Below are positions 48,512-56,733 of a stretch of DNA of 64,000 nucleotides, one piece after another; position 1 is the first letter of the stretch, and each line of letters starts with the position of its first letter. The translations under genes and the position numbers were made by a program. Origin of the DNA: an uncultured Sterolibacterium sp. (GTDB lineage Bacteria; Pseudomonadota; Gammaproteobacteria; Burkholderiales; Rhodocyclaceae); the NCBI GenBank assembly GCA_903832735.1, contig CAILCO010000046.1, forward strand, positions 23,005 to 87,004. Reading direction: 5' to 3'. Under the pieces are notes generated by a model that worked only from the letters and a program-made list of their open reading frames with translations, was not told where the DNA came from and searched no databases.

Positions 48512-50023
48512 ATGCATCCCGACTACCTGGAAAAGATCCTCAACGCCCGCGTCTATGATGTGGCCATCGAATCGCCGCTGGAACTGGCGCCCAACCTCTC
48601 GGCGCGCAGCGGCAACCGCATCTGGCTGAAGCGCGAGGACATGCAGCCGGTGTTTTCCTTCAAGCTGCGCGGCGCCTACAACAAGATGGCGCATCTCACG
48701 CCGGCGCAGTTGAAGCGCGGCGTTATCACCGCCTCGGCCGGCAACCACGCCCAGGGCGTCGCGCTGTCGGCGCAGAAGCTGTCCTGCCGCGCGGTGATCG
48801 TGATGCCGGTGACCACGCCGCAGATCAAGATCAACGCGGTGCGGGTGCGCGGCGCCGAAGTGGTGCTGGCCGGCGATTCCTTCGACGAGGCCTACGCTCA
48901 CGCGCTGCTCCTGGAGAAGAAGCAGAAGCTGGTGTTCGTCCATCCTTACGACGACCCCGAAATCATCGCCGGCCAGGGCACCATCGGCATGGAGATCCTG
49001 CGCCAGCATGCCGGGCCGATCGACGCGGTATTCTGCTGCGTCGGCGGCGGCGGCCTGATCTCCGGCGTGGCCGCCTACATCAAGCGGCTGCGTCCGGAAA
49101 CCAGGATCATCGGCGTCGAGGCGATGGACGCCGACGCCATGGCCCGGTCGCTGGCCGCCGGCCGACGCATCACCCTGGACCGGGTCGGTCTGTTCGCCGA
49201 CGGCGCCGCAGTGAAGCTGGTCGGCCAGGAAACCTTCCGCCTTTGCCAGGAATATGTAGACGAGATGGTGCTGGTCGATACCGATGCGATCTGCGCGGCG
49301 ATCAAGGACGTGTTCGAGGACACCCGCTCCATCCTCGAGCCGGCCGGCGCGCTGGCCATCGCCGGCGCCAAGGAATATGCCCGGCGCCACAAGCTGAAGA
49401 ACAAGACCCTGGTCGCGGTGGCCTCGGGCGCCAACATGAATTTCGACCGCCTGCGCTTTGTTGCCGAGCGCGCCGAAGTCGGCGAGCAGCGCGAAGCGGT
49501 GCTGGCGGTGACGATCCCCGAGCAGCCCGGCAGCTTCAAGAAATTCTGCGACCTGATCGGCAGCCGCAGCATCACCGAGTTCAACTACCGCTTCTCGGAT
49601 GCCGAGGAGGCCCATGTCTTCGCCGGCGTCCAGGTCGGCAACCGAGCCGAGTCGCTGAAGCTGGTCGAGTCGCTGAAGAAGCACGGCCTGGCCACGCTCG
49701 ATCTGACCGACGACGAGATGGCCAAGTTGCATGTCCGCCATATGGTCGGCGGCCATGCGCCGCAAGTGCATGACGAACTGCTCTACCGCTTCGAGTTTCC
49801 GGAGCGGCCGGGCGCGCTGATGCGCTTCCTGGAAAGCATGAGCGCTGGCTGGAACATCTCGCTGTTCCACTACCGCAATCACGGTGCCGACTATGCCCGC
49901 GTACTGGTCGGCATGCAGGTGCCGGCGAAGGAAATGAAGGAGTTCCGCGCCTTCCTCAAGAACCTCGGCTACCGCTGCTGGGACGAGAGCGGCAACCCCG
50001 CTTACCGACTATTCCTCGGCTGA
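48512..50023 (+). CDS. ilvA: Threonine ammonia-lyase, biosynthetic
   Basis: 503 residues. PLP-dependent deamination of threonine to 2-oxobutanoate, the first step of isoleucine synthesis. The PLP lysine is in FSFKLRGAYNKM and the phosphate loop is VGGGGLISGVAAYIK. Two C-terminal ACT-like regulatory domains (~330-500, with PGSFKKFCDLIG and PGALMRFLES) fit feedback control by isoleucine/valine, as in the long IlvA. ATG 48512 is the start. Its end overlaps the convergent amidohydrolase gene by 15 bases. Confidence 0.93.
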   Translation: MHPDYLEKILNARVYDVAIESPLELAPNLSARSGNRIWLKREDMQPVFSFKLRGAYNKMAHLTPAQLKRGVITASAGNHAQGVALSAQKLSCRAVIVMPVTTPQIKINAVRVRGAEVVLAGDSFDEAYAHALLLEKKQKLVFVHPYDDPEIIAGQGTIGMEILRQHAGPIDAVFCCVGGGGLISGVAAYIKRLRPETRIIGVEAMDADAMARSLAAGRRITLDRVGLFADGAAVKLVGQETFRLCQEYVDEMVLVDTDAICAAIKDVFEDTRSILEPAGALAIAGAKEYARRHKLKNKTLVAVASGANMNFDRLRFVAERAEVGEQREAVLAVTIPEQPGSFKKFCDLIGSRSITEFNYRFSDAEEAHVFAGVQVGNRAESLKLVESLKKHGLATLDLTDDEMAKLHVRHMVGGHAPQVHDELLYRFEFPERPGALMRFLESMSAGWNISLFHYRNHGADYARVLVGMQVPAKEMKEFRAFLKNLGYRCWDESGNPAYRLFLG

Positions 50024-50758
50024 CGCCCGGCCTTGCATTGATGGCCATGCTGCCGCTTCGAGAGCCTGTGCCAGGCTGGCGATCACCTGGCTGCGCAAGC
50101 ACCGCCACTTCTTGCCGCCCGCCGCCACGATGCCCTGGTTGATCTCCAGTTCGATGCCGAGGTAATCGTCGGCCGGGAAGCGGCGGCGCAAGTAGGCGGT
50201 GAGGCCATCGGACTTTCCGCTGTAGGGATAGTTGCGGCGCAGCCTCAGGCCAGGTTCCCGTTCCCTGAAACACGCTAGCCACGCCTCGCACAGGTCGGCT
50301 TCGCCGGCGCGTGCCGGGTCGTAGAGCAGGCCTACGTCGGCTGATCGAACGATGCCGTCGAGCACGGGCGTGAAGCTGTGGCTGGAAAGGTGGATCACGC
50401 GCTGGCCGCTTGCCAGCGCAGCGACGATCGCAGCCTCCACCTTGCTGCGAAACGGCAGGTAATAGTCCGCGAGTATCCGCTGGCGAAGCTCCGCTGGCAG
50501 GCGGCGAATGGCCTCGGCATGGAGGCGCGGATGGCCGGGCGAGCGGTTGAGGTCCACCAGCAGGCGGCTGATGGTCGAATAGATCAGCGGCGCGCCGAGT
50601 TGTCGTGCCAAGGTCCGGGCCATGCTCAAGGCACCGGCGTCGTAGCCGCGGTGGCTTTGCAGCAGGTCTTCGCAGCCCGCGAAGCAGTCGCGGTAGCGTA
50701 TCGGAATCCGATTGCCGCCATGTTCGCAGGTGATCAGGAACCGGCCGTGCTGCTCCAT
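50009..50758 (-). CDS. N-formylglutamate amidohydrolase family protein
   Basis: 249 residues. LITCEHGGNRIPIRYRDCF and HLSSHSFTP are the metal-ligand motifs of the FGase family, zinc amidohydrolases related to HutG. A classical histidine-degradation role is unlikely, since no hut genes are nearby. It starts two bases after the GCS2-like ligase stop and is the last gene of the amidoligase cluster, so it may trim or release an N-acyl/formyl group or a glutamyl product. That role is inference. Confidence 0.83.
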   Translation of the reverse strand: MEQHGRFLITCEHGGNRIPIRYRDCFAGCEDLLQSHRGYDAGALSMARTLARQLGAPLIYSTISRLLVDLNRSPGHPRLHAEAIRRLPAELRQRILADYYLPFRSKVEAAIVAALASGQRVIHLSSHSFTPVLDGIVRSADVGLLYDPARAGEADLCEAWLACFREREPGLRLRRNYPYSGKSDGLTAYLRRRFPADDYLGIELEINQGIVAAGGKKWRCLRSQVIASLAQALEAAAWPSMQGRASAEE

Positions 50759-50760
50759 GT

Positions 50761-52008
50761 TTAGCGGTCCATGAACAGGCGTCCGTCGGCCAGGCAGTCG
50801 CAGAGTTCTCTATAGACAGCGTGAAGACTATGCCGCTCAAAATTCGCACCGAGTGCGCGCATGATCCGGCGCGCGAGAGGGCCCCTGCTCAATATGAGAT
50901 CGAGCGGCGCGAGGTTCACCTGTGACAGCAGGGGATCTGCGGCGCACGAGGCAAACAGGTGACGCCACAACTCATGGGCCTCGCAGTGGTCCTGCGGGAA
51001 GCCGAGCAGATTCAGGTAATCCGCATCGACTATCAGCGCCCTGTCGGCGTCGCGGATGCATGCGTGCAGAATGTCCGCCAGGGCGCCGGTTGCGATGCGC
51101 CGTTGCGCCTCGGGAGGCGACCACCGGCCCTGATACAGCGCCCTGGCGACGGCGCTGGTGAGGGCGGCGATGGCCAGATCGGCCTGTGGGCATTCCTGCA
51201 GGTCGATGACACGGATTTCCAGGGCGTCGCGGTCGAAGCGCGGGATGGCGCCGCGGGTGTTTAGCCACTCATGCTGCAGCACGCCGTCGGGGTCGAGGGA
51301 AGCGATATCGCGGTACATCGGCGCCAATACCTCCGCCTCATATCCGTTTCGGCTGGAGGCATTATCGGGCACTAGCCGGCCGATCAGCGAGGGCACGCGG
51401 GCCGGATGGAGGCGATAGCACTGCATGCGGAAATCGAGAGCCTCTTGGGCTCGCCCTTCCGCCACCGGAGAACTGGCCGCAAGCGCCGGCAGGATGGGCA
51501 GCACGAGGCGCGCGGCGGCATGCAGTCGCGCGAACTCTTCGTCGCCGGCGAAAGGCAGGTTGAGATGCATGCTCTGGATATTGGCCCAGCCGTGCGAGCG
51601 GCAATCGAAGATCCGGTCGTAGCTGCGGTAGATGGCCGCGCCATGGTGCGGCCACAGCCGCGTTTCGTTCGCCGGATTCATCCACGGGTGCATCGCGCCG
51701 GGCATCAGCCTCGCGCCGAACTCGGCGAGCAGCGCCGCTATGCTCCTAAGTTCAGCCTGGAATCCCTCTGCGAGTCCCTCCAGCCGCGCTTGCGGCGGTG
51801 CGTTCTTGATCTCGACCAGATGCAACGTCAGTTCGTTGGACCAGGCGAAGCGACCCTTCTTCACCTCGTTCGCGTAATGGCCGGAGGCATTTTGCAACAG
51901 CCGGTCGGCGATCGGCAGCAGCGCCAGGCTGTCGCTATCCACGATCATGTACTCGAGTTCGATGCCGTAGGCCGAGAATGCCCGCAGCGCGGTAGCAGAC
52001 GACGTCAT
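50761..52008 (-). CDS. GCS2-like glutamate-cysteine-ligase-family protein (YbdK type)
   Basis: 415 residues. GCS2 fold of carboxylate-amine ligases: GIELEYMIVD at the start with Mg-binding glutamates, HLVEIKNAPP, and a central active-site region (HPWMNPANETRLWPH). Family members form gamma-glutamyl amide bonds with ATP, but bacterial YbdK-like members often have unknown acceptors. ATG 52008 overlaps the ATP-grasp stop as ATGA, so translation is coupled; the track's GTG 52020 is four codons longer. It would act after or with the ATP-grasp ligase encoded just upstream. Confidence 0.83.
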   Translation of the reverse strand: MTSSATALRAFSAYGIELEYMIVDSDSLALLPIADRLLQNASGHYANEVKKGRFAWSNELTLHLVEIKNAPPQARLEGLAEGFQAELRSIAALLAEFGARLMPGAMHPWMNPANETRLWPHHGAAIYRSYDRIFDCRSHGWANIQSMHLNLPFAGDEEFARLHAAARLVLPILPALAASSPVAEGRAQEALDFRMQCYRLHPARVPSLIGRLVPDNASSRNGYEAEVLAPMYRDIASLDPDGVLQHEWLNTRGAIPRFDRDALEIRVIDLQECPQADLAIAALTSAVARALYQGRWSPPEAQRRIATGALADILHACIRDADRALIVDADYLNLLGFPQDHCEAHELWRHLFASCAADPLLSQVNLAPLDLILSRGPLARRIMRALGANFERHSLHAVYRELCDCLADGRLFMDR

Positions 52009-53474
52009 GGCAGGCGCCACCCGCGCGCCGCCATCCTGCGGGCGAACACCGTCATGACCTCGAGGTAGAGCGCGTCCTTCAGCACACCGTCCTCGTTGCC
52101 GGCATCGACGTTGGGGTTGTCATTGACCTCGATCACGCAATAGCCGCGCCCCATCGCCTTGAGGTCCACGCCATAGAAGCCGTCGCCGATCAGGTTGGCC
52201 GCCTTCAGGGCGAGCTTGATGACTTGCGCCGGCGCATCGTCAAGCGGCAAGGCCACTGCGGCACCTTCTGCGTAGGCGGTTCCCTCCGACGCGTGCCTGA
52301 TGATCTGCCAGTGCCCCGGTGCCATGTGGTACTTGCAGACGAAGAGCGGGCGTCGGTCGAGGATGCCCACGCGCCAGTCGAATTCCGTCGGCAGGTATTC
52401 CTGGGCCACGATCAACGCGGACTTCTCCAACAGGCAGGTGACCGCCGCGCTCAACTCGGCCTCCGATTCCGCCTTGACGACCCCGAGCGAGAAGGAACCG
52501 TCCGGTTGCTTGAGGACGCATGGCAAACCGAGGGTCGGGATGATCTGCTGCACGTTGTCCCTATGCACCAACAGGGTCTTCGGAATGGGAATGCCGTGCC
52601 GGGGCAGCAGTTCGGCCAGATAGACCTTGTTGTTGCAACGGAGGATGGATTCAGGGTCGTCGATCACCACCAGTCCCTCGGCTGCGGCGCGCCGGGAGAA
52701 GCGATAGGTATAGTGGTTGATGAAGGTGTTGTCGCGAATGAAGAGTCCGTCGAAACGGCCCAGCCTTGCCATGTCCGAATGACCAATCAACTCGGCCTGT
52801 ATGCCTATCGCATGCGCGGCTTTGACGAACTTCGCCAGCGCCGCATCGTCGGAGGCCGGATGGGCACAGTCGCGATCATGCAGGATAGCCAGATTGAAGC
52901 GGGGCGGACGCTGACGTAGCGGCCGTAGCTGGCGGCCGTCGAAATACCCGTGCGCCGCCTCGACTGCGAAGTCCTGATGCTGGTGCGGAATCTCGCTGGC
53001 GGCGATGGCCTTGACGCTGCTGACATGCCAGACGCCGTCCTTGCGGGCAAACAGCGCGCGCAGCAGGGGTGCCTGGAACAGATCGAAGATTTGCCGGCTC
53101 AAGGCGTCGTAGCGGGCCGTCATGTTGCGGCCGAAATAGATGCTGAGCGTGAACTCGTCCGACTTGATTGGCGCCAGAGATTTCGCGACCAGTTCGTCGA
53201 GGCTGGAAGTCATGAGCCGGACCAGATTCTGCGATTGCAGGTCCTCAATAGCGGAGACGAGCGGCAGCGGCCTGTGGCCCCGCGCTTCCGCCAGCAACGA
53301 GACGTAGTAGCCGAAGCTCTGGTAGCGGTAGGATTTGCACAGGTTGTAAACCCGCACGGCAGGCTGCTTGCCGTAGGCCGGCTCGGTCAGGTAGGCGCGT
53401 GCAGCGACGACGGTCACGTCGGGGATCGCCAAGGGCCAGTCTTCGGGAACGTCGACCACGACGAGCAGTTTCAT
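52005..53474 (-). CDS. RimK-like ATP-grasp ligase with N-terminal RLAN-type domain
   Basis: 489 residues. The N-terminal ~200 residues (MKLLVVVDVPEDWPLAIPDV, VYNLCKSYRYQSFGYYVSLLAEARG) match the extension seen on RimK-like ligases in this gene context. The ATP-grasp part (~260-489) has VLKQPDGSFSLGVVK, EYLPTEFDWRVGIL and the Mg-binding IEVNDNPNVDAGNEDG. RimK-type enzymes add amino acids, often glutamate, to carboxylates by an acyl-phosphate route. It overlaps the C39-like gene by four bases and the GCS2 gene by four. The substrate is unknown. Confidence 0.84.
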   Translation of the reverse strand: MKLLVVVDVPEDWPLAIPDVTVVAARAYLTEPAYGKQPAVRVYNLCKSYRYQSFGYYVSLLAEARGHRPLPLVSAIEDLQSQNLVRLMTSSLDELVAKSLAPIKSDEFTLSIYFGRNMTARYDALSRQIFDLFQAPLLRALFARKDGVWHVSSVKAIAASEIPHQHQDFAVEAAHGYFDGRQLRPLRQRPPRFNLAILHDRDCAHPASDDAALAKFVKAAHAIGIQAELIGHSDMARLGRFDGLFIRDNTFINHYTYRFSRRAAAEGLVVIDDPESILRCNNKVYLAELLPRHGIPIPKTLLVHRDNVQQIIPTLGLPCVLKQPDGSFSLGVVKAESEAELSAAVTCLLEKSALIVAQEYLPTEFDWRVGILDRRPLFVCKYHMAPGHWQIIRHASEGTAYAEGAAVALPLDDAPAQVIKLALKAANLIGDGFYGVDLKAMGRGYCVIEVNDNPNVDAGNEDGVLKDALYLEVMTVFARRMAARGWRLP

Positions 53475-54181
53475 GGCGATGGCCCGAGCGCAGGCTGGAT
53501 GATCAGCAGGTTGGCATCGTGGGTGACGATGCCCAGCAGGATGGCGCCGACGGCGCGGTCGATCCGGATCCAGTAATCCCTGGATGGCCCGTAGGGATCG
53601 GCAACCAGCACGGTGCGCGCCGGCCGATCGTAGCCGGCGAGGACGACGAAGTGACCGCCAGGGGTGCCGCGGACGTCGTCCGCTTCGTCTTGCGGACCAT
53701 ACTCGCGCATCGCTCGATAAAGATAGGTGGCGCTCAGGCCGGTGATGATGGGCAACCGGCGGCGCAGGATTCCGCGCAGCAGATAGCGCGACAGATCCGT
53801 CAGGCGCAGGCGGCCTCCGAGCCGCAAAAACTCGATATAGCCGGCGGTGACCTCTTGCACGCGCGGGTCATGACTTTTCTCTGCGCGCTGTCGCAAAAGG
53901 CGTTCGCCGATATCGACAGTGCCTACGAACCAGGTCGGGTCAAACACGGTCAGGTTGAAGGTGTAGATCGTTGCCTGAAAGCCCTGCCGCAATGCGTCAC
54001 AGGCGAGGAATACCGCTATCGTGCCGCCGCGTTCGAGTTTGCCGGTGCGGGCGATAACATCTTGCAAGTGTTCCTGCCGGCCCCAATAGCGGTAGACGGC
54101 ATGCAGGCAGGTCGGGCCGCATGTGGATTCGTCCGGCTGTGGCAGGATCTCGACGGGCAGGTGGAGACGAGGGGGTAGCAT
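53471..54181 (-). CDS. C39-like papain-fold peptidase
   Basis: 236 residues, no signal peptide or membrane segment seen. The likely catalytic cysteine is in PDESTCGPTCLHAVYRYWG near residue 22, the histidine in GGHFVVLAGYD near 190 and an aspartate in VADPYGPSRD. This is the order of peptidase C39, the family that cleaves leader peptides, but it has no ABC transporter attached. It could process a peptide or act as an amidase or transglutaminase-like enzyme. It starts three bases after marC and overlaps the ATP-grasp gene. Confidence 0.8.
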   Translation of the reverse strand: MLPPRLHLPVEILPQPDESTCGPTCLHAVYRYWGRQEHLQDVIARTGKLERGGTIAVFLACDALRQGFQATIYTFNLTVFDPTWFVGTVDIGERLLRQRAEKSHDPRVQEVTAGYIEFLRLGGRLRLTDLSRYLLRGILRRRLPIITGLSATYLYRAMREYGPQDEADDVRGTPGGHFVVLAGYDRPARTVLVADPYGPSRDYWIRIDRAVGAILLGIVTHDANLLIIQPALGPSP

Positions 54182-54184
54182 GGA

Positions 54185-54823
54185 CTAGCTTCCCCCCAGG
54201 CCGGGGAACAGTTCCTTGAACCCGACCGCCATCGATTCGACTGCGATTGCGGCAAGCAGCAGTCCGAGCAGGCGCGTGGCCACGTTGAAGCCGTTGCTTC
54301 CCAAGAGGCGGCCGATGGGAATCGCCAGGCGCAGCATCACCCAGAGGATCAGGCAGACGACGACGATGCCGGCGATCACCGCCACCTGGTTCTGCCAGCC
54401 TCCGTGTTGAACCGCGATCATCACCGTGCTGATGGCGCCGGGGCCGGCCAAGAGCGGGATTGCCAGCGGGACGATGCCGGGGGGCTCTTGGTCATGGTTA
54501 GCCGCCTCCGCCGTCTGCCTGAGGTTGCCCGGCTTGGCCTGGAGCATCGCCAGCGCCATCAGCAGCAGCACCAAGCCCCCGGCGATGCGGAATGAAGACA
54601 GACTGGTGCCGAGGAAGCGCAGCAGGGCTTCGCCGCTCACAGCCGTGCCGACCAGGATTGCCAGCACGGTCATGCTCGCCACGCGCGCGATCCGGCGGTG
54701 CTCGGCCTCGGGGCGGCCCGCGCACAGGTCCAGGAAGAAGGGGATCGCGATGAAGGGATCGAGCACCGCAATCAGGGTGACGAGAAAACTGCTATGGCGG
54801 CTCCACGATTCCATCCCGGTCAT
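54185..54823 (-). CDS. marC: MarC-family integral membrane protein
   Basis: 212 residues with six membrane segments. FLVTLIAVLDPFIAIPFFLDL and PLLAGPGAISTVMIA are MarC-family signatures. MarC proteins were once linked to multiple antibiotic resistance, but their real transport role is unclear. The ATG overlaps the rtcB stop and the gene ends three bases before the C39-like gene, so it lies inside the cluster and may carry a substrate or product of it. The symbol denotes family. Confidence 0.85.
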   Translation of the reverse strand: MTGMESWSRHSSFLVTLIAVLDPFIAIPFFLDLCAGRPEAEHRRIARVASMTVLAILVGTAVSGEALLRFLGTSLSSFRIAGGLVLLLMALAMLQAKPGNLRQTAEAANHDQEPPGIVPLAIPLLAGPGAISTVMIAVQHGGWQNQVAVIAGIVVVCLILWVMLRLAIPIGRLLGSNGFNVATRLLGLLLAAIAVESMAVGFKELFPGLGGS

Positions 54824-56244
54824 CCCTTGACGCAGACCAGCGGCGCGAGCCGCGCCACCTTGCCCGCCAGCCCGGCGGCGGCTGAGGCATCCACCACCGC
54901 GCCCACGTCCTTGTAGGCCAGCGGTGCCTCCTCGGCGACGCCGCGCGAACTCGGACTGCGAATCAGAATGCCGCGCGCCGCCAGTTCATCGACCACCGCC
55001 CGACCGTGCCAGCGGCGTGTGGCCTCGTGGCGGCTCATCGCGCGTCCGGCGCCGTGGCAGGCGGAGCCGAAGGCGCGCCCGCCTGCCCTGCCGGCGAGGA
55101 TATAGGAAGCGGTGCCCATGCTGCCGCCGATCAGCACCGGCTGCCCGGCCTGGCGGTATTCGGCCGGCAGTTCCGGATGGCCTGGAGAGAATGCGCGCGT
55201 CGCCCCTTTGCGGTGCACGAACAGACGGCGCTTGATGCCATCCACTGCGTGGATCTCCTCCTTGCAGGTGTTGTGGGAGACGTCGTAGAGCAGCGGCAGA
55301 ATGACGCCCGGAAAGACTTCGGCGAAGGCATCTCGGGTCAGTTGCGTCAGGATCTGGCGGTTGGCCAGCGCGCAGTTGATGGCCGCGCGCATCGCGCCGA
55401 GGTAACGCTGGCCGAGGCCGGACTTGAGCGGGGCGCAAGCCAGTTCGCGGTCCGACAGAATGATGCCGGCTGCCGGTGCCGCCAGCACCATTTCGCGCAG
55501 GTAGTCCGTGCCTATCTGGTGGCCCAGGCCGCGCGAGCCGCAATGGATGCTGACGACCACGTCATCCACCGCGAGGCCGAAGGCGCGGGCGACAAGCGGA
55601 TCGAACAGTTCGGCGACCACCTGCAGCTCCAGGTAGTGGTTGCCCGATCCCAGCGTGCCCATCTCGTCGCGCTGGCGCTTCTTCGCCTGTTCGGAAACGG
55701 CTTCGGGGTCTGCGCCGGCCATGCAGCCGGACTCTTCGATGCGCGCCAGGTCGGCTGTCGTCCCATAGCCTTCCTTGACCGCCCAGCGCGCGCCGCCCTT
55801 GAGCATGGCCTCCATCCCGGCAGCCGCAAGATGCAGGCCGCCGGTGCTGCCCAGACCGGCGGGGATGCGCGCATAGAGCAGGTCTGCCAGACGCGCCTGG
55901 CGCGCCTCGATGTCGGCGCGCGTCAGGCCCGTGTGCAGCGTACGCACGCCGCAGGAGATGTCGAAGCCGACGCCGCCAGCTGAAACCACGCCGCCCTCTT
56001 CCGCATCGAAGGCCGCGACTCCGCCTATCGGAAAGCCGTAGCCCCAGTGGGCGTCGGGCATGGCGTAGGAGGCGGAGACGATGCCCGGCAGGCCGGCGAC
56101 GTTGGTCACCTGTTCGAGCACCTTGTCGTCCATCGCTTCCATGAGTTCGGGCGAGGCGAAGATGATCCCGGGGACGCGCATCCGGCCTGTGGCCGGCAGG
56201 CACCATTCGACGGGGCCGCGTTGTTCCAGTCTCGAGATATCCAT
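54820..56244 (-). CDS. rtcB: RNA-splicing ligase RtcB
   Basis: 474 residues. Joins RNA 3'-phosphate or 2',3'-cyclic phosphate ends to 5'-OH ends using GTP and manganese. DAHWGYGFPIGGVAAFD, the metal cysteine in GVGFDISCGVRTL, GSGNHYLELQVV, HCGSRGLGHQIG, DVSHNTCKEE and the guanylylated-histidine block CHGAGRAMSRHEA are all intact. It follows the archease gene by 63 bases. No RtcR-type sigma-54 regulator is seen. Its stop overlaps marC. Confidence 0.95.
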   Translation of the reverse strand: MDISRLEQRGPVEWCLPATGRMRVPGIIFASPELMEAMDDKVLEQVTNVAGLPGIVSASYAMPDAHWGYGFPIGGVAAFDAEEGGVVSAGGVGFDISCGVRTLHTGLTRADIEARQARLADLLYARIPAGLGSTGGLHLAAAGMEAMLKGGARWAVKEGYGTTADLARIEESGCMAGADPEAVSEQAKKRQRDEMGTLGSGNHYLELQVVAELFDPLVARAFGLAVDDVVVSIHCGSRGLGHQIGTDYLREMVLAAPAAGIILSDRELACAPLKSGLGQRYLGAMRAAINCALANRQILTQLTRDAFAEVFPGVILPLLYDVSHNTCKEEIHAVDGIKRRLFVHRKGATRAFSPGHPELPAEYRQAGQPVLIGGSMGTASYILAGRAGGRAFGSACHGAGRAMSRHEATRRWHGRAVVDELAARGILIRSPSSRGVAEEAPLAYKDVGAVVDASAAAGLAGKVARLAPLVCVKG

Positions 56245-56307
56245 CGCAAATCAGGGCCCCGTTGCTAGCGATTGTAGAAATAGCTTCCTGTCCCGCTACG
56301 ACCAGGA

Positions 56308-56730
56308 TCAAACATCGACGACGCACTGGGCAAGCCATTGTCCGTTCGCGGAACGCCGCACCTCCAGTTCGCAGAACGACGCGCCCTTGACTTCGGCGGC
56401 GGGCTGGTGGCGAGCAACATCCACCGATTCGCCCCAGGCGGTCGCCAGCAGGCGGATGGGTTTCCGGCCCTCGATGCGGAGTTCGAAGCGCGAAAACAAC
56501 ATGCGGCGCGTGGCCATCTCATAGACCAGGGCGTTGAGCCAATCCACCAGCAGCAGTTCTTCATCGGGCGCCTCGCATTCGATGAGGATGGCCTGCTCTG
56601 CCAACACTCTGGTCGGATCGCAGATCGTCGCGGTGAGTGCCGTCGCCGCGTCGGCGAAGGCTTCGGCGAGGGTGGCGCCGCTGCCGCGCACGCCGATGTC
56701 GGCCTGGTGGGCGAAGGTCTGCCAGTTCAT
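56308..56730 (-). CDS. Archease
   Basis: 140 residues. Archease activates RtcB for multiple turnovers by helping the guanylylation step. [18 protein letters not shown] and the acidic ligands around [21 protein letters not shown] are typical; the conserved C-terminal VDV aspartate is present. ATG 56730 (MNWQTF) or 56733 is the start. Placed just upstream of rtcB it completes an RNA-repair pair. Confidence 0.9.
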
Positions 56731-56733
56731 CAA

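Follow-up and report, generated by a model that had tools for sequence, protein, structure and literature searches.

Four adjacent genes in a 64,000-nucleotide stretch of DNA from an uncultured Sterolibacterium sp. (the whole stretch is called the window here) encode two ATP-dependent ligases, a peptidase and an amidohydrolase, and raise the question of what compound these enzymes act on together. The original prediction was that they build and trim a glutamyl-type peptide or modify a small molecule. On the minus strand the genes lie in the order C39, RLAN-RimK, GCS2, FGase, and two further genes of the same directon are found upstream:

54820-56244, same directon, upstream of MarC: RtcB RNA ligase
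54185-54823, same directon, abutting the C39 gene upstream: MarC-family membrane protein
53471..54181, minus strand: C39-type cysteine peptidase, 236 aa, stand-alone and papain-fold (Peptidase_C39_2, E 6.6e-11)
52005..53474, minus strand: RLAN-RimK ATP-grasp ligase, 489 aa (Pfam RLAN, 1.5e-50; RimK, 1.3e-13)
50761..52008, minus strand: GCS2-family carboxylate-amine ligase, 415 aa (Pfam GCS2, 2.1e-25)
50009..50758, minus strand: FGase-family (N-formylglutamate amidohydrolase-like) hydrolase, 249 aa (Pfam FGase, 7.5e-27)

All four open reading frames are intact. The C39/RimK and RimK/GCS2 junctions are both -4 overlaps (ATGA) and the GCS2/FGase junction is +2, taking the ATG at 52008 as the GCS2 start (a longer alternative is the GTG at 52020). 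The intact, coupled arrangement that had been predicted is therefore confirmed, and junctions of -4, -4 and +2 indeed leave no space inside the cluster for a precursor peptide gene. The FGase gene is convergent (tail-to-tail) with ilvA, encoding threonine ammonia-lyase. MarC and RtcB, with an archease gene, make up the upstream part of the directon (window positions 54185-56733), which is longer than four genes, but MarC and RtcB are outside the conserved unit. A locus of the same genus (L076) likewise has archease and RtcB ahead of the four-gene cassette; three Nitrosospira loci (L087, L100 and L109) have RtcB/archease on the opposite strand, a few kb away.

The four proteins all scored above curated Pfam cut-offs (Peptidase_C39_2; RLAN and RimK; GCS2; FGase), in agreement with the earlier calls of C39-like, RimK-like ATP-grasp, GCS2-like and FGase-like domains. 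None of the four reached an NCBIfam cut-off, so a specific function cannot be transferred to them, and none closely resembles an enzyme whose substrate is known. In the RLAN-RimK ligase the RLAN domain (residues ~1-180; 171 bits, cut-off 25) is followed by pre-ATP-grasp and ATP-grasp domains (~193-485; RimK model 51 bits, cut-off 21). Its AlphaFold model had a pLDDT of 86.8, and the best PDB folds for the ATP-grasp part were ArgX, LysX and RimK, with 3VPC/3VPB at the top and about 20% identity to ArgX. RLAN is an extra N-terminal domain, apparently outside these fold matches of ~300 columns. Lys283, Lys322, Asp437, Glu449 and Asn451 of the ATP-grasp domain are invariant in the alignment of relatives.

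The GCS2 ligase belongs to its family at 90 bits (Pfam) and has a GS-like fold. A sequence search of the PDB gave no useful match, whereas fold comparison of the AlphaFold model (pLDDT 93.4) placed YbdK first (Foldseek, 1R8G, E 7.5e-12, TM 0.69/0.81; 16% identity in the structural alignment), then plant and bacterial glutamate-cysteine ligases, with weak matches to the Pup ligase PafA and the depupylase Dop. Scores against the models for specific subfamilies were far lower than required (PRK13515, 54.9 bits versus 371; TIGR02050, 48.4 versus 176.4). Glu17, Glu19, Glu59, Glu66, Asn150, Glu264 and Arg266 are invariant in an alignment with 42 relatives. The FGase protein belongs to the wider FGase family (95 bits), and its nearest solved structure is 2ODF (Atu2144, of unknown function); Glu12, His13, His36, Asp40, His127, Glu203 and Glu205 are invariant among 37 relatives.

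The C39 protein has profile similarity to the C39 domains of ComA/PCAT and contains the Cys-His-Asp triad and oxyanion Gln of that group, Gln15, Cys21, His177 and Asp195 all being invariant in an alignment with 37 relatives. In the alignments, which hold 37-42 relatives, the invariant residues of all four proteins are of catalytic type; their roles in the four active sites were assigned by family knowledge. For both ligases, then, such residues are present rather than absent, and the structure prediction proposed earlier gave confident models with YbdK-like and ArgX/LysX/RimK-like folds. No ABC exporter gene was found among the genes adjacent to C39 in the window. Neither an exporter nor a GG-leader substrate marks the protein as a double-glycine peptidase, as no flanking family recurs in most loci and no small ORF is recurrent. 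The original prediction emphasised a peptidase without its usual ABC partner; the lack of an adjacent ABC gene stands, but it says less than this emphasis implies, since the literature describes C39_2 proteins as single-domain peptidases (PMC10318531).

Several of these assignments bear on a route to a glutathione-type thiol, or on salvage or degradation of gamma-glutamyl or N-acyl-glutamate compounds. A GCS2 protein, an ATP-grasp ligase, a papain-fold enzyme and an amidohydrolase together resemble glutathione/phytochelatin chemistry, and FGase is a hydrolase family. The host, however, has its own gshA-gshB pair elsewhere, on contig C87 (GshA, E 4.7e-196; GshB, E 3.7e-122); the cassette is not this genome's source of these enzymes and therefore not a system for glutathione synthesis. 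The presence of two ligases that consume ATP speaks against pure degradation, and the FGase protein is not HutG by score (TIGR02017, 14.8 bits versus a cut-off of 278.75), so that histidine degradation by HutG was rejected as well. We consider a thiol or salvage route improbable.

Genome contigs were scanned with an alignment of GCS2 proteins, which confirmed at least 572 relatives, and the best 80 were kept for the gene-neighbourhood survey that had been proposed with the original prediction. All four genes are together in 60 of these 80 loci, in an order that is nearly always identical, and several of the 20 incomplete loci end at contig edges. Neither this survey nor the ligase alignments refuted the original prediction. 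Among the best 80, four-gene carriers were found in Beta- and Gammaproteobacteria, Balneolaceae, Planctomycetes, an Eisenbacteria MAG, and Desulfobulbaceae/Desulfocapsa/Desulfuromonas and other 'Deltaproteobacteria'. Verrucomicrobia have C39, RimK and GCS2, and one Hydrogenedentota contig has RimK and GCS2. Named isolates with the cassette include Aromatoleum, Thiobacillus thioparus, Nitrosomonas, Nitrosospira and Noviherbaspirillum. It was also present in two MAGs labelled Klebsiella pneumoniae (L120 and L125), labels that look wrong because L120 groups with uncultured Gammaproteobacteria in the tree. The coupling is not due to chance, since the same junctions recur in other genomes: exact -4 junctions were found in 38 of 63 cases for C39/RimK and in 47 of 69 for RimK/GCS2. 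Over 57 loci the evolutionary distances of the four proteins are correlated, with r 0.68-0.88 where shuffled labels gave 0.27 at most; shared organismal descent contributes to this correlation.

No family outside the four occurs in more than 10 of the 80 flanks, and no recurrent transporter, regulator or substrate-supply gene was found there. RtcB, archease and MarC were rejected as pathway partners on the same count, families other than the four recurring in at most 10 of the 80 loci. A nicotinate phosphoribosyltransferase gene and an isochorismatase-family gene are near the cassette in L084, L085, L087, L092, L097, L100, L109 and L112; these Thiobacillus- and Nitrosospira-type loci often also contain an AAA_33/APH-like kinase, and resemble a stress/nucleotide-salvage island.

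Small ORFs up to 1.5 kb upstream or downstream were clustered, and no conserved carrier or precursor recurs beyond the shadows of close relatives. A local RiPP precursor and a local LysW-like carrier were both rejected on this result. A graspetide-like modification of a ribosomal peptide encoded elsewhere in the genome, with C39 as the leader peptidase, would have precedent, as graspetides are products of ATP-grasp ligases and RiPP export systems use C39 peptidases to cut double-glycine leaders (PMC8939145). It is nevertheless very improbable: along with the missing small ORF, no exporter is recurrent, and the ATP-grasp domain resembles RimK/LysX, folds that rank above the graspetide ligase PsnB in the comparison.

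Where a member of the cassette has left the cluster, it has usually been kept in the genome. Four Nitrosospira genomes lack RimK in the cluster, where the C39 gene directly overlaps that for GCS2, but all four have an RLAN-RimK elsewhere that falls inside the four-gene clade. In three Nitrosospira loci (L183, L184 and L185) the relocated gene is preceded by one for a conserved protein of 480-530 aa that has no Pfam match and seems to contain hydrophobic segments. FGase is non-adjacent in eight genomes and was retained in six, twice on the same contig at distances of 2.5 and 5.2 kb. No FGase was found in two Verrucomicrobia genomes that lack an adjacent copy, and FGase is therefore not strictly needed everywhere. 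The types concerned are rare in an even sample of 399 Pseudomonadota, where the FGase type was found in two genomes (the window's own included, at a stricter cut-off) and the same GCS2 type in one, so retention of displaced members is unlikely to be background. In one gammaproteobacterial MAG the FGase is split over two frames (L189:6691-7460), an apparent frameshift or assembly error. The relocated FGase of three Nitrosomonas loci (L186, L187 and L188) adjoins a RelA/SpoT-type gene, an assignment checked with Pfam for L186 and L188; L188 has in addition an FGase fragment on the far side of that gene. A genome of the same order has the FGase type beside a Crp-like regulator, without RLAN or this GCS2 type (L182:6247-7503).

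RLAN itself is more widespread, being found in 72 of the 399 Pseudomonadota but in only 6 of 61 near relatives, and its usual setting is a different one. In 35 of 40 inspected loci a GNAT acetyltransferase is beside RLAN-RimK, and in 24 of the 40 a DUF3335-type C39 domain is fused to that GNAT. Neither GCS2 nor FGase of the cassette type was found in the 17-kb stretches around inspected loci of this GNAT form, which is widespread in Pseudomonadota. The usual partner of RLAN-RimK is thus GNAT, not GCS2 and FGase, a point that the original prediction missed. The two forms have homologous RLAN-RimK proteins, with 74 positions conserved in both, and related C39 domains (hhalign probability 97%, E 3.9e-11). 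They differ in that GNAT replaces GCS2 and FGase, and in that the C39 of the GNAT form is DUF3335-type and GNAT-fused, or absent. In the tree the four-gene RimKs are one clade (support 100/100) with the GNAT-form RimKs outside. What the two forms have in common is thus an RLAN-RimK core, in most cases accompanied by a C39-fold peptidase. They exchange GNAT for GCS2 plus FGase, and GNAT and GCS2 may do equivalent capping jobs. Any chemistry common to both forms is expected to come from the RLAN-RimK ligase. A planctomycete cassette (L131) lies between a GNAT gene on its upstream side and a gene that fuses GNAT to a carbon-nitrogen hydrolase on its downstream side, and possibly bridges both forms. 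Two RLAN-RimK genes have no adjacent GNAT (L045 and L191); one has a DUF2157 membrane protein as neighbour, the other an aminotransferase on a Pseudomonas aeruginosa plasmid.

In the sister form the GNAT is RimI-like, and this is one of several observations that would suit reversible protein tagging, in which the ligases would tag a protein, at a terminus or on a side chain, with glutamate or a gamma-glutamyl unit that the C39 and FGase enzymes remove. Operons of a ligase and a protease are a hallmark of protein modification by RimABK, for which RimK and a dedicated protease in one operon have been shown experimentally: glutamates are put on the C terminus of ribosomal protein S6 by RimK and taken off by RimB (PMC11957791, PMC7343187). 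On a Salinivibrio plasmid (L190:3375-5789) rimK is between genes for an 'ATP-dependent zinc protease' and a succinylglutamate desuccinylase/aspartoacylase-family protein, a set with the same ligase, protease and amidohydrolase logic, and the weak matches of the GCS2 model to the PafA and Dop folds point the same way. Against this, neither flanking families nor small-ORF clustering gave a linked target protein or carrier, RimK requires no GCS2 partner, and the cassette's ligase scores below true RimK, the S6 L-glutamate ligase (TIGR00768, 80.5 bits versus a cut-off of 143.4; PRK10446, 43.7 versus 331). We consider protein tagging unlikely, though it is the strongest of these alternatives.

The cassette looks like a real, conserved and uncharacterised pathway. 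The unit is kept across phyla and displaced members are usually retained, so it very probably makes something that cells use. Two ligases and two hydrolases, among neighbours that include no recurrent transporter, precursor, carrier or regulator, are consistent with a self-contained pathway fed by common metabolites, and we give about an even chance to one in which a small peptide-like compound is made and trimmed independently of the ribosome. GCS2-family enzymes make gamma-glutamyl amides, RimK-like ligases join glutamate, or an amino acid like it, to a carboxylate, and FGase-type enzymes hydrolyse N-acyl amino diacids. In such a pathway GCS2 would activate a carboxylate and link it to an amine; going by the family, that carboxylate would be the gamma-carboxylate of glutamate. 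RLAN-RimK would attach an amino acid, glutamate-like on the precedent of RimK, LysX and ArgX, to a different carboxylate of that molecule. Amide bonds in the compound would afterwards be cut by the C39 peptidase and by FGase, for maturation, length control or recycling. An N-acyl amino diacid bond is the type that a RimK-like glutamate ligase would produce, so FGase could be its eraser. The cytoplasmic location, the reaction order, the use of glutamate as the building block and the small-molecule nature of the product are our inferences. As to the build-and-trim reading first proposed, active sites and co-occurrence argue for a coupled amidoligase/hydrolase pathway, while its glutamyl-type or small-molecule product is not established by them.

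A more specific possibility, which we hold to be somewhat doubtful, is that the product is a new class of small glutamyl-type peptide, in which gamma-glutamylation by GCS2 has taken the place of the N-acetylation by GNAT in the sister form, and FGase is the corresponding eraser. If so, it might be a solute, redox buffer or cofactor of nitrifiers, sulfur oxidisers, sulfate reducers and planctomycetes. No description of the four-gene cassette was found in the literature searched, of which the 2009 amidoligase survey was not a part. In that survey Iyer and colleagues reportedly noted RLAN-RimK ligases with GCS2 and peptidase partners as a predicted pathway, and the four-gene form may already have been recorded there.

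Known systems share parts of this arrangement. To our knowledge RimABK has no GCS2, FGase or RLAN domain, and the LysX/ArgX-LysW carrier pathway contains no GCS2. RimABK of Pseudomonas is like the cassette in that a RimK-fold glutamate ligase shares its operon with a dedicated protease; its protease is retropepsin-like, whereas that of the cassette is papain-fold, its substrate is known (RpsF, with poly-glutamate), and RimB also stimulates poly-glutamate synthesis besides removing glutamates (PMC11957791). The LysX/ArgX-LysW pathway provides the best structural match of the cassette's ATP-grasp part (3VPC/3VPB), although small-ORF clustering found no LysW-like carrier gene near the cassette. 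Glutathione synthesis likewise uses one GS-fold and one ATP-grasp ligase in sequence (glutamate-cysteine ligase and GshB), but the cassette GCS2 is only 16% identical to YbdK and the cassette adds two hydrolases. From the osmolyte system for N-acetylglutaminylglutamine amide (NAGGN) the four-gene form presumably differs in having no AsnB-like amidotransferase, no GNAT and a different peptidase. The two are alike as small cassettes that combine an ATP-grasp ligase with a peptidase, and the GNAT of the sister form weakly matches TIGR03103 (E 6.7e-5) of that system.
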